DNA of 64,000 bases from Halarcobacter ebronensis (GTDB lineage: Bacteria > Campylobacterota > Campylobacteria > Campylobacterales > Arcobacteraceae), in the NCBI RefSeq assembly GCF_013201825.1, contig NZ_CP053836.1, positions 1,364,001 to 1,428,000 of the forward strand. Reading direction: 5' to 3'. Under the pieces are notes generated by a model. The model was not told where the DNA came from. It saw only the letters and a program-made list of their open reading frames with translations, and did no database searches. This document shows, piece after piece, positions 39,843-46,460 of the stretch. The position numbers and the translations under genes were made by a program. How positions within the stretch are numbered: position 1 is the stretch's first letter; every line of letters begins with the position of its first letter.

Positions 39843-39867
39843 AATAAAGGAGAAAATCTCCTTTATT
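39843..39867. terminator. Bidirectional terminator, yjdM / ribB
   Basis: AATAAAGGAG-N5-CTCCTTTATT, a 10-bp stem that includes the ribB stop codon. Confidence 0.78.
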
Positions 39868-40498
39868 CTTCTACAAATTGTCTATACTTGATAATATCAT
39901 CAACGCTTAATATTGGCATATCATATTTTTTAGCAAAAGCTGTTATTTGTTCACCTTTTGCCATAGTTCCATCTTCATTTGTAAGTTCACAAAGAACAGC
40001 AACTGGTTCAAGTTTTGCTAATTTCATTAAATCAATACTAGCTTCTGTATGTCCTTGTCTCTCAAAAACACCGCCATCTCTTGCTCTTAGTGGGAAAATA
40101 TGACCAGGTGAGACAATGTGTTTTATACCATCTTCTTTTATTGCAGCTTTTATAGTTGTAACTCTATCTTTTGCACTAACTCCTGTTGTAACATTATCTT
40201 TTGCCTCAATTGAGATTGTAAAAGGAGTTTGATATTTAGAGTTGTTTGCTTCTACCATCATAGGAAGTTGTAACTCTTCAACTTTTTTTGAAGTCAAACA
40301 AAGACATACTATTCCACTGCACTCTCTAATTAGTAGAGCCATTTGGCTTTCAGTAATAGTGTGTGCATAGAAAAAAATATCTGCTTCATTTTCTCTATCT
40401 TTATTGTCTGTAACAACAACACCTTTTCCATTTTGAAGTGCTTTAATAGCATTTTGGACATCAATTTTGAAGTCCCAGTTTAAGATTTTTTGATTCAT
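39863..40498 (-). CDS. ribB: 3,4-dihydroxy-2-butanone-4-phosphate synthase
   Basis: 211 residues, single-domain RibB without a fused GTP cyclohydrolase II. It makes the four-carbon unit of riboflavin from ribulose 5-phosphate. Active-site marks are [15 protein letters not shown] near residue 32, the [28 protein letters not shown] stretch with its His and Arg residues, and [17 protein letters not shown]. An FMN riboswitch lies upstream, so it is probably repressed by FMN. The ~92 bases between riboswitch and ATG would hold the expression platform. Confidence 0.95.
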
Positions 40499-40590
40499 TA
40501 TTTAATCCTTTTTTGAATTAAACTTATTGAATCAGGGCCAATATGTAAGTAATACGAAATTATTAAATTAACAGTAGTATAACTTTTATA

Positions 40591-40723
40591 TTCTCTTTCA
40601 TCCAGACTTTAACTGTTGGTTTTGGATTTGCACCAAATCTGCTTGACCTTTACATTTGTAAAGCGCTCGTGGACTTCTATAAAGTATAGTTACCACCAGT
40701 AAGGAATTTCACCTTGCCCTGAG
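40591..40723 (-). promoter_or_regulatory. FMN riboswitch (RFN element)
   Basis: Reading the minus strand, the conserved RFN blocks appear in order: AGGGCAAGGTGAAATTCC, then ACTGGTGGTAA, AAGTCCACGAGC, a variable stem, then GATTTGGTGCAAATCC, AAAACCAACAGT and AGTCTGGATGAAAGAG. Its 3' end is about 90 bases upstream of ribB. FMN binding is expected to lower ribB expression. Confidence 0.95.
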
Positions 40724-41026
40724 AAATAAATTTATAAAATTATAACTAAATTTCACTTAGAAAAGAGAAGAAAATTATTTTTTAATAAGAAAGTAGATTT
40801 GTTTTTAGATATTACTCTAAATTATATACTTAATAAGTTATTTATAATTAATAATTAATAAAAATCAAGCTAATATGCAGTGAAAATAATCTTACAAGGT
40901 CTATTCGAAAGTAGTTCTATAAAAATAATAATTTATAACTAACTTTGATTATATAATCTAAACTTATTTACAAATTATTTTTTTTAAGTATTTTTATTGT
41001 GATTGTAAAATAGCTGGGAGAATTAA
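40724..41026. other. Intergenic region upstream of the third chemoreceptor
   Basis: 303 AT-rich bases with the divergent promoters of the riboswitch transcript and the receptor. A GGGAG before the GTG at 41027 is the ribosome site. No gene or clear repeat seen. Confidence 0.45.
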
Positions 41027-42994: not shown

Positions 42995-43028
42995 AATAAC
43001 CAGTAGGAGATCTCCTACTGGTTATTTT
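42993..43028. terminator. Bidirectional terminator, 36-base perfect palindrome
   Basis: Two 18-base arms (AAAATAACCAGTAGGAGA and its exact complement) with no spacer, flanked by A and T runs; it contains stop-region bases of both convergent genes. Confidence 0.85.
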
Positions 43029-43842
43029 TCATCAAATCTTGCTCTTTCATAGCTTGAGTTAAAACCTCATAACCTTCAAGCTCTTTGTTTGTTGTAACCA
43101 CCCATTTATTAAGACCTTCCATTTGCATCATTTTTTTAATAATTGGATCATTTGGATCTTGAGATAACATCATTTGAGTAAATGCTTCTTGTATTTTTTC
43201 ATCTAAACTATCTAAAACAGTAAAATTACAATGGCAATAACCTTCACTTACATAAAATGACTCAATCACTCCACTTGGGAAAAGTCCATCTTCCAAAGCT
43301 CTAATCCAAGTTGTTATACCAATTGCACCTGCATCAATCTCATTATTTTTTATTGCATCTAAAATATCAAATTCACTTCTACCTGTATCTCCATGTTTTC
43401 CCATATCAGAGTTATATCTAACAAGATTTATCTCATCAAAACAATTAGACTCATTTTGAAGATATTTAATAGGTAAAATGGCAGCTTGTGCAGAATCTCC
43501 ACTTCCTAAACCAAATCTTTTCCCTTTTAGATCTTCAACAGATTTAATCCCACTTGATGCTTTTGTAATAAATACTGATTTAAAATCAATATCTGTATCT
43601 CTCATAAGTAAGGCTTTTACTTTCCCTTTACTTAATTCATAAGATCTAACCCAAGCAACATTTGTATTCCATGCTACATCTATTTTACCTGATAATAGAT
43701 ACTCAATTTGTGCCTCATAGTTTGAGAAAAGTACATAATCAAGTCTAAAGCCTCTATCATTGAAATAATCTCTAATAATATCCCAAATAGGAATTACCTT
43801 TGGATCATAAGCAACAGCTCCTAGCATAAGTGTTTTTTGCAT
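43015..43842 (-). CDS. PhnD-like substrate-binding protein without signal peptide
   Basis: 275 residues, periplasmic-binding-protein fold of the phosphate/phosphonate (PhnD) family: LMLGAVAYDPKVIPIWDIIRDYF, LLSGKIDVAWNTNVAWVRSY, the SVEDLKGKRFGLGSGDSAQAAILP hinge segment and AIKNNEIDAGAIGITTWIRAL. The N-terminus (MQKTLMLGAVAYD) enters the first strand directly, so there is no signal peptide or lipobox and the protein should stay in the cytoplasm. No ABC permease or ATPase gene is near. It ends a three-gene operon after an atypical acyl-CoA dehydrogenase and a diiron protein, suggesting a role in binding a small substrate for them. Confidence 0.85.
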   Translation of the reverse strand: MQKTLMLGAVAYDPKVIPIWDIIRDYFNDRGFRLDYVLFSNYEAQIEYLLSGKIDVAWNTNVAWVRSYELSKGKVKALLMRDTDIDFKSVFITKASSGIKSVEDLKGKRFGLGSGDSAQAAILPIKYLQNESNCFDEINLVRYNSDMGKHGDTGRSEFDILDAIKNNEIDAGAIGITTWIRALEDGLFPSGVIESFYVSEGYCHCNFTVLDSLDEKIQEAFTQMMLSQDPNDPIIKKMMQMEGLNKWVVTTNKELEGYEVLTQAMKEQDLMKNNQ

Positions 43843-43852
43843 ATTAAGTCCT

Positions 43853-44980
43853 TTATAAAATTGGTTGATTTGTTAGAGCTTTTCCAAGCCAAATAGATAA
43901 TACATCAGTACTTGGTGCCATAACTTGTGCTGCATAAGAGTCTCTTAAAAGTCTTTCAATAATAATTCTTTTTGCATAAGCTGTACCACCACCAATTTTC
44001 ATAGCTTTACTACAAACTGCAACAGCAGCTTCTGAAGCATTTAATCTTGCAGAGATAATTTGAGCTAAAGCATCTGCATCACCATTTGCTCCACTTTTTG
44101 CAGCTGCTAGTGTAAAATGTTTAGCAGCAGTTGCTTTAGTATAAATATCAGCCAAATGGTTTTGCACAGTTGGAATAGTACATAAAGCACTATCATCACT
44201 ATATTTTCTATTCATACTATATTCAATAATAGTATTGCAAGCATTTAAAGCAACTCCACTATAAACTGCACTAAGTCCTATTACAAAGAATGGTGCAACA
44301 ACATTAAATACCTGCTCAGCACCTGATCCAGCAGCACCAATTCTATATTTAACATCCACATTAACATCTTCAAAAACCATAGGCATTGAAGCATTTCCTC
44401 TCATACCTAAACCATCCCAGTTATTCTCTTGGAAAGTAATTCCATTTAAATCTTTTGCAATAATCCAGTTATCTAGTCCTTGCGCATCAAAGCTATTTGA
44501 TAAAACCAAATAAAAATCAGCATATAAAGCAGAAGTTACAAAACTTTTTCTACCATTCATAAATAGTTTCTCTCCAGCTTTTTTAACTGAGATCTCTGGA
44601 TTATAAAAGTGAGTACCAGTTCCTGTTTCACTAAAAGCCAAAGCTAAAAGAAGTTCACCTTGTGCAATTTTAGGAAGAAACTCTTTTTTCATCTCATCAC
44701 TTCCATAAGCAACAATACACATAGTTGCAACATTGTGCATCATATAACATAAACCAGTTGTAGCACAACTACTTGCAAAAGCTAATACTGTTTGCGTATG
44801 TTCTTCTAATCCAAGCCCCATTCCTCCAAACTCTTTTGGAACAATAAGACCTGTAATTTTCTCTTTTTTAATAGCTTCAAAGCTATCAACTGGGAATTTT
44901 GCATCAATATCAACATTTTGTGTATATGGTGCAACATTTGTTTTTGCGAACTCTAACATTTTATTATAAATACTACTCAT
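43853..44980 (-). CDS. Acyl-CoA dehydrogenase-fold flavoprotein, probably not a dehydrogenase
   Basis: 375 residues with the ACAD layout: N-terminal helices, a middle beta domain (LLLALAFSETGTGTHF, GMRGNASMPMVFEDVNVD) and C-terminal helices for FAD. Aligning its end RDSYAAQVMAPSTDVL with the usual RDxxxxxIYEGTSEI places Ala355 where most ACADs have the catalytic Glu. Some true dehydrogenases keep the Glu elsewhere, so this is not proof, but ACAD-fold monooxygenases such as DszC also lack it. It sits 8 bases after the diiron gene and 10 bases before the PhnD-like gene. Confidence 0.85.
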   Translation of the reverse strand: MSSIYNKMLEFAKTNVAPYTQNVDIDAKFPVDSFEAIKKEKITGLIVPKEFGGMGLGLEEHTQTVLAFASSCATTGLCYMMHNVATMCIVAYGSDEMKKEFLPKIAQGELLLALAFSETGTGTHFYNPEISVKKAGEKLFMNGRKSFVTSALYADFYLVLSNSFDAQGLDNWIIAKDLNGITFQENNWDGLGMRGNASMPMVFEDVNVDVKYRIGAAGSGAEQVFNVVAPFFVIGLSAVYSGVALNACNTIIEYSMNRKYSDDSALCTIPTVQNHLADIYTKATAAKHFTLAAAKSGANGDADALAQIISARLNASEAAVAVCSKAMKIGGGTAYAKRIIIERLLRDSYAAQVMAPSTDVLSIWLGKALTNQPIL

Positions 44981-44988
44981 TTTCTTTC

Positions 44989-46251
44989 CTACATAAAATT
45001 TGGTGTGTGTACTTGTGAGACTTCATTTGCCAAATCCTCATCCATACCTATATCAATCAATCTTTTTATTCTATTTTGATTCATCTTCTCTTTTAACTCT
45101 TCTACTAAATCAAAACCTCTTTTATAAGCAATTGGATTATCTCCTCCACCTGCAAGTATAGCTAAAGACTCCAAGAGCATAGAAGATTCACTGCTTACTT
45201 CATCCATAAACTCTTTTCTTTTAAAGGCAGTGTTTTTTAGTGCATTTATTCTAGATGGATTTTGTTGTATGGCAGATTTTACATGCTCAATTCCATAAGC
45301 AACATGTCTCATTTCATCTCTTTTTGCAAGTCGAATGATTTTTTTAGTGGCATCATCAGGCATATATTTTTCCAAAAAGCCAAGTAAATCTACAAAAGTT
45401 CCTTCTCCCATAACATGAAGTAAAAATGAACTTTTTATATAATCATCCTCTTTAAACAAAGAGTAAAGTGATCTTTGGGTTATTTCACTTGAGTATTGAA
45501 ATCCTCCACCATTTGCATTTGCTCTTTTTGTAAACACTTCAATATGTCTTGCTTCATCATTCATAAGTGATGACAAAAATAGTGGAATTTCCATATAATA
45601 TGGATTTATTTTGCTAATAAATTTTCCAGGAATATATAAAGCTGAAAACTCGTTTTCAACCAAATAAGTCATAATTTGACAAACCGCTCTCTCTAGTACA
45701 GGGTCTAAGTTTGGAATCTCATTCCAAGGAATATCTGTTGTTGCATTCCATTGTAGATTTTTTCCCTCTTCATAAAGAATAGAAACTGGTTCTGACCAAA
45801 CAAGTTCCTTATGTGAGAGTTCAAAATCATAAAAAGGTGTTCCCTCTTGTGTTACTATTCCTCTTGTTAAAAGACCATTGTCCTCTGGAGCTTTTGAAAG
45901 AATTGTATCACTTAATTCCAAATCCTTCATTTTTGGATTTGAAGAGTCAATCCCATTCATTTTTTTATTCCAAGAGGCTTTGCCTGTAAAACTATTTTTA
46001 CTAAGTTTTTTTATTTTGTATGAAAATTGTTCTTTTAAAGAGGTTCTTCCTAAATATTCATGCCCTCTAAGTCTTGCCCATCCTCTAAGTTCAATTTCAA
46101 TATTACTTTTTTGTGAAATAATTTCGATAATTTCACCTTTATTGGCAACTAAAAATGCATTCTCAAGTTTTAGAAATAACTCTTTTGAAGGGGGAATATT
46201 TCCTGTGAAGATTGATATGCTATGATTTAGATTATTCAATGAATTCTCCAA
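44989..46251 (-). CDS. TusA-like / ferritin-like diiron fusion protein
   Basis: 420 residues. Residues ~12-70 resemble TusA/SirA (TG-N-x-P-P start, GEIIEIISQKS strand, RGWARLRGHEYLG end), but the CPxP Cys of sulfur-carrier TusA is replaced (GNIPPS). After a linker, residues ~185-330 form a ferritin-like helical bundle with two iron-ligand sets: E199/E201 with E233-A-R-H236, and E283 with E313-M-R-H316. This pattern is that of diiron oxygenases or oxidases. It is first in a tight operon with an ACAD-fold and a PhnD-fold protein. Reaction unknown. Divergent from an aldo/keto reductase gene across 209 bases. Confidence 0.8.
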   Translation of the reverse strand: MENSLNNLNHSISIFTGNIPPSKELFLKLENAFLVANKGEIIEIISQKSNIEIELRGWARLRGHEYLGRTSLKEQFSYKIKKLSKNSFTGKASWNKKMNGIDSSNPKMKDLELSDTILSKAPEDNGLLTRGIVTQEGTPFYDFELSHKELVWSEPVSILYEEGKNLQWNATTDIPWNEIPNLDPVLERAVCQIMTYLVENEFSALYIPGKFISKINPYYMEIPLFLSSLMNDEARHIEVFTKRANANGGGFQYSSEITQRSLYSLFKEDDYIKSSFLLHVMGEGTFVDLLGFLEKYMPDDATKKIIRLAKRDEMRHVAYGIEHVKSAIQQNPSRINALKNTAFKRKEFMDEVSSESSMLLESLAILAGGGDNPIAYKRGFDLVEELKEKMNQNRIKRLIDIGMDEDLANEVSQVHTPNFM

Positions 46252-46460
46252 ATTGTGGTTTATTTTTGTAATATAATCAATTAATTAATTATATTAAAAT
46301 CTCTACCTGAGATCTTATAAGAAAAAGTTTACCAAACAAATAATTAATTTAAAATTTATTGGTAAATAAAAATTAACCTTTTTTGTAATTACATTTATTT
46401 AATAAATATTGTTTTAATCTACATTGATTATAATTATGAAAAAATTTAGAGTAAAAAAAT

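Follow-up and report, generated by a model that had tools for sequence, protein, structure and literature searches.

The closest relatives of the locus studied here have been grouped in mycobacteria and other Actinobacteria, where the Rv1678-Rv1681 set (NF049986, NF049984, NF049985, NF049973) contains the same adjacent pair of genes, in the same order, for an acyl-CoA dehydrogenase (ACAD)-fold protein and a PhnD-like protein. This pair is recognised by NCBI as families without an assigned function, and none of the papers we found gives a tested function for Rv1678-Rv1681. In Mycobacterium tuberculosis Rv1680 has been listed as a putative component of a phosphonate transporter (PMC8562490). We place the pair in this species from the names of the NCBI families and from a locus on a mycobacterial plasmid, and not from that genome itself. 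Another described system of relevance is MesD, a folate-independent methionine synthase which needs oxygen and whose methyl donor is unknown (PMC7857596).

The window, i.e. the whole stretch of 64,000 nucleotides analysed here, belongs to a complete 3.17-Mb genome, and its nearest named relatives are Arcobacteraceae. It harbours three genes, all on the minus strand: gene 1 (44989..46239, 416 aa) for a TusA-like region fused to a ferritin-like diiron protein, gene 2 (43853..44980, 375 aa) for an ACAD-fold flavoprotein and gene 3 (43015..43842, 275 aa) for a PhnD-fold protein without a leader. The coordinates, the order and the gaps of 8 and 10 nucleotides given for this trio by an earlier, sequence-only reading are correct. 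Gene 1 more likely starts at TTG 46239 than at the alternative TTG at 46251, because a GGAG ribosome-binding site (46246..46249, minus strand) lies six bases before the former and relatives have the same TTG start. The trio is flanked by a divergent aldo/keto reductase gene upstream and a convergent chemoreceptor gene downstream, neither of which is kept beside it in relatives. Elsewhere in the window an FMN riboswitch (115 bits; 40586-40730, minus strand) lies directly upstream of a ribB-like gene (39863-40498).

The sequence-only reading had made its operon depend on the co-occurrence of the three genes in other genomes, and this was found. Gene 1 is present in 30 of 249 Campylobacterota genomes, all of them among the 33 which possess gene 3 (hypergeometric P ~1e-35), and in the Campylobacterota relatives the trio genes are adjacent and their order is kept. 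The trio is confirmed as a genuine conserved unit, beyond a chance arrangement; no other neighbour is widely shared in the relatives' loci. It occurs in at least five phyla (Campylobacterota, Brachyspira, Bacillota, Planctomycetota and Acidobacteriota), with the diiron gene placed after gene 3 in the last two. A named scan of the 80 best-scoring ACAD/PhnD-like loci found the diiron gene in 39 loci from these five groups and an Rv1681-type radical-SAM gene in 40 (Actinomycetota and one Dormiibacterota); because only the best-scoring 80 are covered, the phylum counts do not represent frequencies. None of the 80 loci has both genes, one locus being truncated.

The trio is not described in any paper found in our literature search, so the earlier statement that no described system has this trio holds in this respect. 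It has to be restricted, however, as genes 2 and 3 are related to the NCBIfam Rv1679/FadE16 and Rv1680 families, and for this reason we regard the trio as one form of a wider ACAD + PhnD-like module which has at least three. The window trio itself lies outside the Rv1678-Rv1681 set, since no radical-SAM partner is found among the surrounding ORFs. In a Rhodococcus opacus plasmid (L035:6907-9855) an Rv1678-type membrane gene lies together with the ACAD and PhnD-like genes, and only a partial radical-SAM match comes after this group. A Miltoncostaea oceani plasmid (L036:2208-9852) carries the ACAD and PhnD-like genes beside Rv1681-like radical SAM, CMD peroxidase-like, DoxX and arsenosugar-type glycosyltransferase genes. 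A link to arsenosugars, considered on account of these neighbours, was rejected because it is based on this single locus.

The N-terminal, middle and C-terminal ACAD domains of gene 2 all exceed their Pfam cut-offs, which assigns the protein to the ACAD fold. Its best NCBIfam match is the Rv1679 family acyl-CoA dehydrogenase (NF049984; 277.9 bits, E 1.4e-82), and as the membership cut-off of this family is 600 bits, the protein is a relative and not a member. The sequence-only reading had noted Ala355 at the position of the SCAD-type catalytic Glu. This residue is indeed there and is invariant in 32 of 32 aligned homologues, as part of an Ala355-Pro356 pair (codons from 43918 down) which replaces the Glu throughout the alignment. 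An alternative catalytic Glu was looked for at the sequence level, and none was found at the site used by isovaleryl-CoA dehydrogenase, where the residues are aromatic or hydrophobic (Phe231/Phe232, with Phe232 invariant). Lacking a catalytic Glu at both positions, the protein can not be classed as an acyl-CoA dehydrogenase in the enzymatic sense. Ordinary acyl-CoA metabolism, with the binding protein as an unrelated adjoining gene, would be consistent with the Pfam scores of the ACAD domains, but is contradicted by the loss of the catalytic Glu in all aligned homologues and by the strict co-occurrence of the trio, and we regard it as highly improbable. Flavin monooxygenases such as DszC and the nitrososynthases typically have an ACAD fold without a catalytic base, and a nitrososynthase is among the relatives of gene 2.

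Gene 1 starts with a TusA-like region (approximately residues 8-78; 46006..46218, minus strand), which is recognised by a profile match and by the order of strands and helices in the AlphaFold model. The window protein matches weakly (E 0.0023), while values as good as E 1.3e-8 are reached in other family members. The earlier description of this region as Cys-less agrees with an alignment of 31 members, in which the sulfur-carrying CysPro motif is absent, and the protein is therefore not classed as a TusA sulfur carrier. The ferritin-like domain follows at approximately residues 144-410 (45010..45810, minus strand). The two ExxH sets previously read from the sequence (E233/H236 and E313/H316) are present and correspond to E229/H232 and E309/H312 when counted from TTG 46239, but they make up only half of the metal set, which is completed by E195/E197 and E279. 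E195, E197, H232, E279, E309 and H312 are invariant in the 31 homologues, E229 is conserved in 30 of them, and an HTPNFM motif just beyond the domain, formed by the last residues of the protein, is kept in nearly all family members. The AlphaFold model is helical and confident (pLDDT 91.5). With four carboxylates and two His in a four-helix bundle, the predicted metal site is that of a carboxylate-bridged diiron protein of the ferritin-like type.

The best fold matches of gene 1 are VlmB and a VlmB homologue (Z 22.7-22.8), followed by R2-like ligand-binding oxidases (~21-22) and aldehyde-deformylating oxygenase (~20-21); with Z ~20-23 for all, these subfamilies are near-tied. In valanimycin biosynthesis VlmH and VlmB are paired for a hydroxylation and a subsequent further oxidation. 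By analogy, the ACAD-fold protein of the trio could hydroxylate an amine which the VlmB-like diiron protein oxidises further, with an amino-phosphonate or a comparable substrate carried by the PhnD fold. The rank of the two VlmB folds, the nitrososynthase mentioned above and an AurF profile which matches 15 of the 31 gene 1 members all point in this direction. However, the gap in Z to the R2-like oxidases is only ~1, biosynthetic neighbours are absent, and the radical-SAM and methionine-synthase partners of other forms of the module are unsuited to N-oxidation, so that N-oxygenation appears unlikely.

Gene 3 matches the Pfam Phosphonate-bd profile (E 6e-24). That this PhnD-type protein has no signal peptide, as stated before, is supported by its model (pLDDT 93.5), in which the protein begins at beta-strand 1, and the reported lack of ABC partners could be reproduced, as no ABC genes are found in the operon or conserved with the cassette. 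The best NCBIfam match is the Rv1680 family SBP-like protein (NF049985; 320.4 bits, E 1.1e-95); the membership cut-off being 400 bits, gene 3 is again a relative rather than a member. Against the ABC phosphonate-binding PhnD family (TIGR03431) it scores only 62.7 bits with a cut-off of 261 bits, and having neither an export signal nor ABC partners it does not belong to that family. Among solved structures, proteins which bind phosphonate or phosphite come closest (Z up to 25.9), and in the alignment the invariant H150 falls on the site His in the GxHD motif of PtxB, the His of the phosphonate site. A second invariant element of the gene 3 family, H204-C205, is absent from a periplasmic selenate-type relative. 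A link to selenium, considered because of this selenate-binding relative, was rejected, as the relative misses the HC pair and selenium genes are not consistently present in the vicinity. Further fold relatives are ArrX and AioX, which bind arsenate or arsenite, and Thi5.

THI5, MqnA and MqnD show that proteins of this kind can be enzymes. Accordingly, the PhnD-fold protein of the trio could itself consume a residue of its pocket or rearrange its substrate, the other two proteins preparing or finishing the product, which would be a small cofactor-like compound. A periplasmic-binding-protein fold without signal peptide or transporter, the invariant H204-C205 and the presence of Thi5 in the fold list would suit such a role. 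Since the closest folds are by far the phosphonate and phosphite binders, and thiamine or quinone genes are not conserved nearby, we assign a low probability to an enzymatic function of gene 3.

Upstream of gene 1 lies a 5' leader RNA element (46236..46318, minus strand) which consists of the helices P1 and P2 and a weak P3 over the ribosome site. The P1 hairpin (AUCUC-AGGUA-GAGAU; 46299..46313, minus strand) is the part common to the operons of Campylobacterota and Brachyspira. Besides the window, a five-pair hairpin with the loop [ACU]G[GU]NN is found 39-100 nt before gene 1 in 28 of the 31 readable Campylobacterota/Brachyspira diiron operons of the named scan, with a chance expectation of 0.1 per 186 nt in shuffled window sequence. 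In six loci, mostly from Helicobacter, a copy also precedes the ACAD gene, where the gap is long. The hairpin is missing from the diiron loci of Bacillota, Planctomycetota and Acidobacteriota. Four of the five P1 pairs show two-sided changes, in related sequences which are not independent, and a figure of 100% pairing for P1 is given by construction because pairing was the criterion by which the hairpins were chosen. P1 is followed in Arcobacteraceae by a second covarying helix, and in most members, weakly in the window, a third one covers the ribosome site.

A leader model (R1) was used to search 104 Arcobacteraceae genomes, where all strong matches which could be placed lie before the trio, except for one scar, and the weaker matches inspected lie in unrelated places. 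The scar (L178:7139-7223, minus strand) was seen in an Arcobacteraceae genome from which the three genes are gone. A second model (R2) gave its ten best matches in 40 genomes all at trio loci; twelve later matches inspected lie within genes or before unrelated genes, bar one at an operon of a second type which is described below. Rfam offers no match to the leader at gathering score and, up to E 10, nothing beyond chance level, and no SAM, TPP or other riboswitch was found by Rfam search before the Bacillota and actinobacterial operons. CsrA-type and IRE-type hairpins were rejected as, in our judgement, their loop sequences are unsuitable. The leader hairpin, seen in Campylobacterota and Brachyspira and there at these operons only, is a candidate for an orphan riboswitch or a protein-binding hairpin.

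ArrX and AioX act as sensors. The PhnD-like protein might likewise be a sensor or chaperone which, by binding the substrate or product, regulates the two oxygenases or, via the leader hairpin, their translation. Such a role would agree with these arsenate- or arsenite-binding fold relatives and with the dedicated hairpin, which precedes gene 1 and also the ACAD gene if the gap there is long enough. Nevertheless, the pocket residues and the pairing with the ACAD protein are kept also in the hairpin-less systems of Actinobacteria and Bacillota, which makes a sensor or chaperone quite unlikely.

The operon of the second type, here called the sister operon, encodes in a row an ACAD protein, a PhnD-like protein, a core methionine synthase and an OsmC-like protein. 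It was found in three Campylobacterota and in Bacillus sp. EB600 (L149:6073-9595, L056:8521-12140, L058:5516-9218, L146:7139-10944), the latter organism carrying both the diiron and the sister operon. Its PhnD-like proteins form a second subfamily with a GDHxGGE motif, and the leader hairpin is also present at two of the Campylobacterota sister operons (L149, L058). The zinc residues of MetE (HxC, Glu and Cys) and its homocysteine-site motifs are retained in the synthase. In the genome with L149 (G141) neither another methionine synthase nor MetF was found. The sister operon is a candidate for a new folate-independent methionine synthase system. In the ACAD tree the sister operons nest beside the Campylobacterota diiron operons (support 100/100), whereas the PhnD tree places their PhnD-like proteins on a deep separate branch; because only the ACAD tree joins the two forms, the ACAD gene appears to have been exchanged between them within one module.

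A link of the trio itself to methionine by phyletic pattern was dropped: MetE was first found in all 26 trio genomes tested, and a larger sample gave a weaker picture. Full-length MetE is present in 28 of 30 trio genomes and 133 of 216 others, a weak association which is uncorrected for phylogeny and is excluded as support. Because MetF is present in trio genomes, though diverged, the trio does not look like a replacement of MetF.

The conserved unit, the ligand set, the missing ACAD base, the leaderless PhnD fold, the exchangeable third partner and the dedicated leader are established. Because the three genes travel together through at least five phyla, with a small RNA hairpin of their own in two, the trio looks like an undescribed pathway. 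The explanation we tentatively favour, at somewhat less than even probability, is that the trio forms one cytosolic O2-dependent oxidative enzyme system acting on a small anionic, probably sulfur- or methyl-related metabolite, and is neither a transporter nor part of acyl-CoA beta-oxidation. The redox pathway suggested by the sequence-only reading, with a PhnD fold that presents or senses a small substrate, likewise stands as a proposal. The PhnD-fold protein would hold a small oxyanion-bearing metabolite in its phosphonate-type pocket with the His-Cys pair, and the ACAD-fold protein, supplied with reduced flavin by a general reductase, would oxygenate or oxidise the metabolite held there. The diiron protein might then carry out another O2-dependent reaction, for which its TusA-like region would provide docking or handling, and the leader RNA probably tunes translation of gene 1 to the metabolite. 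A sulfur- or methyl-related compound seems most likely since a core methionine synthase and an OsmC-like protein take the place of the diiron protein in the sister operon, which in two genomes has the same hairpin.

This sulfur or methyl link is the weakest part of the favoured explanation and is based on the methionine-synthase sister operon, the TusA-like, DoxX-like and OsmC-like partners and the shared hairpin. The TusA-like region, which lacks the sulfur-carrying Cys, counts against sulfur, and the cassette contains no flavin reductase, which speaks against the explanation as a whole. Hard to explain, too, is the radical-SAM protein which replaces the diiron protein in aerobic Actinobacteria and poorly fits O2 chemistry alone.

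A further-reaching and rather doubtful proposal is that the ACAD + PhnD-like module represents a new type of O2-dependent enzyme, by which a sulfur or one-carbon unit of a small anion is set free or activated for use by third partners of different kinds (diiron protein, radical SAM or core methionine synthase), with a new riboswitch class sensing the metabolite in Campylobacterota and Brachyspira. If true, the form with the methionine synthase would add another route to methionine which needs neither B12 nor folate. The ACAD + PhnD-like core is found across many phyla of bacteria; its carriers include Helicobacter, Brachyspira and, going by the names of the NCBI families, Mycobacterium tuberculosis. 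The dedicated leader RNA, common to two different operons, can serve as a direct handle on the metabolite. Rv1680 is listed as a putative part of a phosphonate transporter, although the homologues studied here have no leader peptide and no transporter genes conserved beside them.

Comparing the trio with known systems, gene 3 has the fold and the site His in common with the phosphonate- and phosphite-binding proteins PhnD and PtxB, but differs from them by the missing signal peptide, the lack of ABC genes in the cassette and its own HC, RDxD and KHGDTG motifs. MesD/MesX (PMC7857596) resembles the sister operon in that a core methionine synthase lies beside a flavoprotein-type partner; MesX (DUF1852) was not among the genes seen in that operon, however, and the window trio is without a methionine synthase. 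Gene 1 shares the fold and the carboxylate/His ligand set with R2-like ligand-binding oxidase, VlmB and aldehyde-deformylating oxygenase, at only 12-20% identity, and has in addition its own TusA-like N-terminal region and C-terminal HTPNFM. Finally, while the Rv1678-Rv1681 set combines the ACAD/PhnD-like pair with radical-SAM and DoxX-like membrane partners, the trio combines it with a diiron protein.
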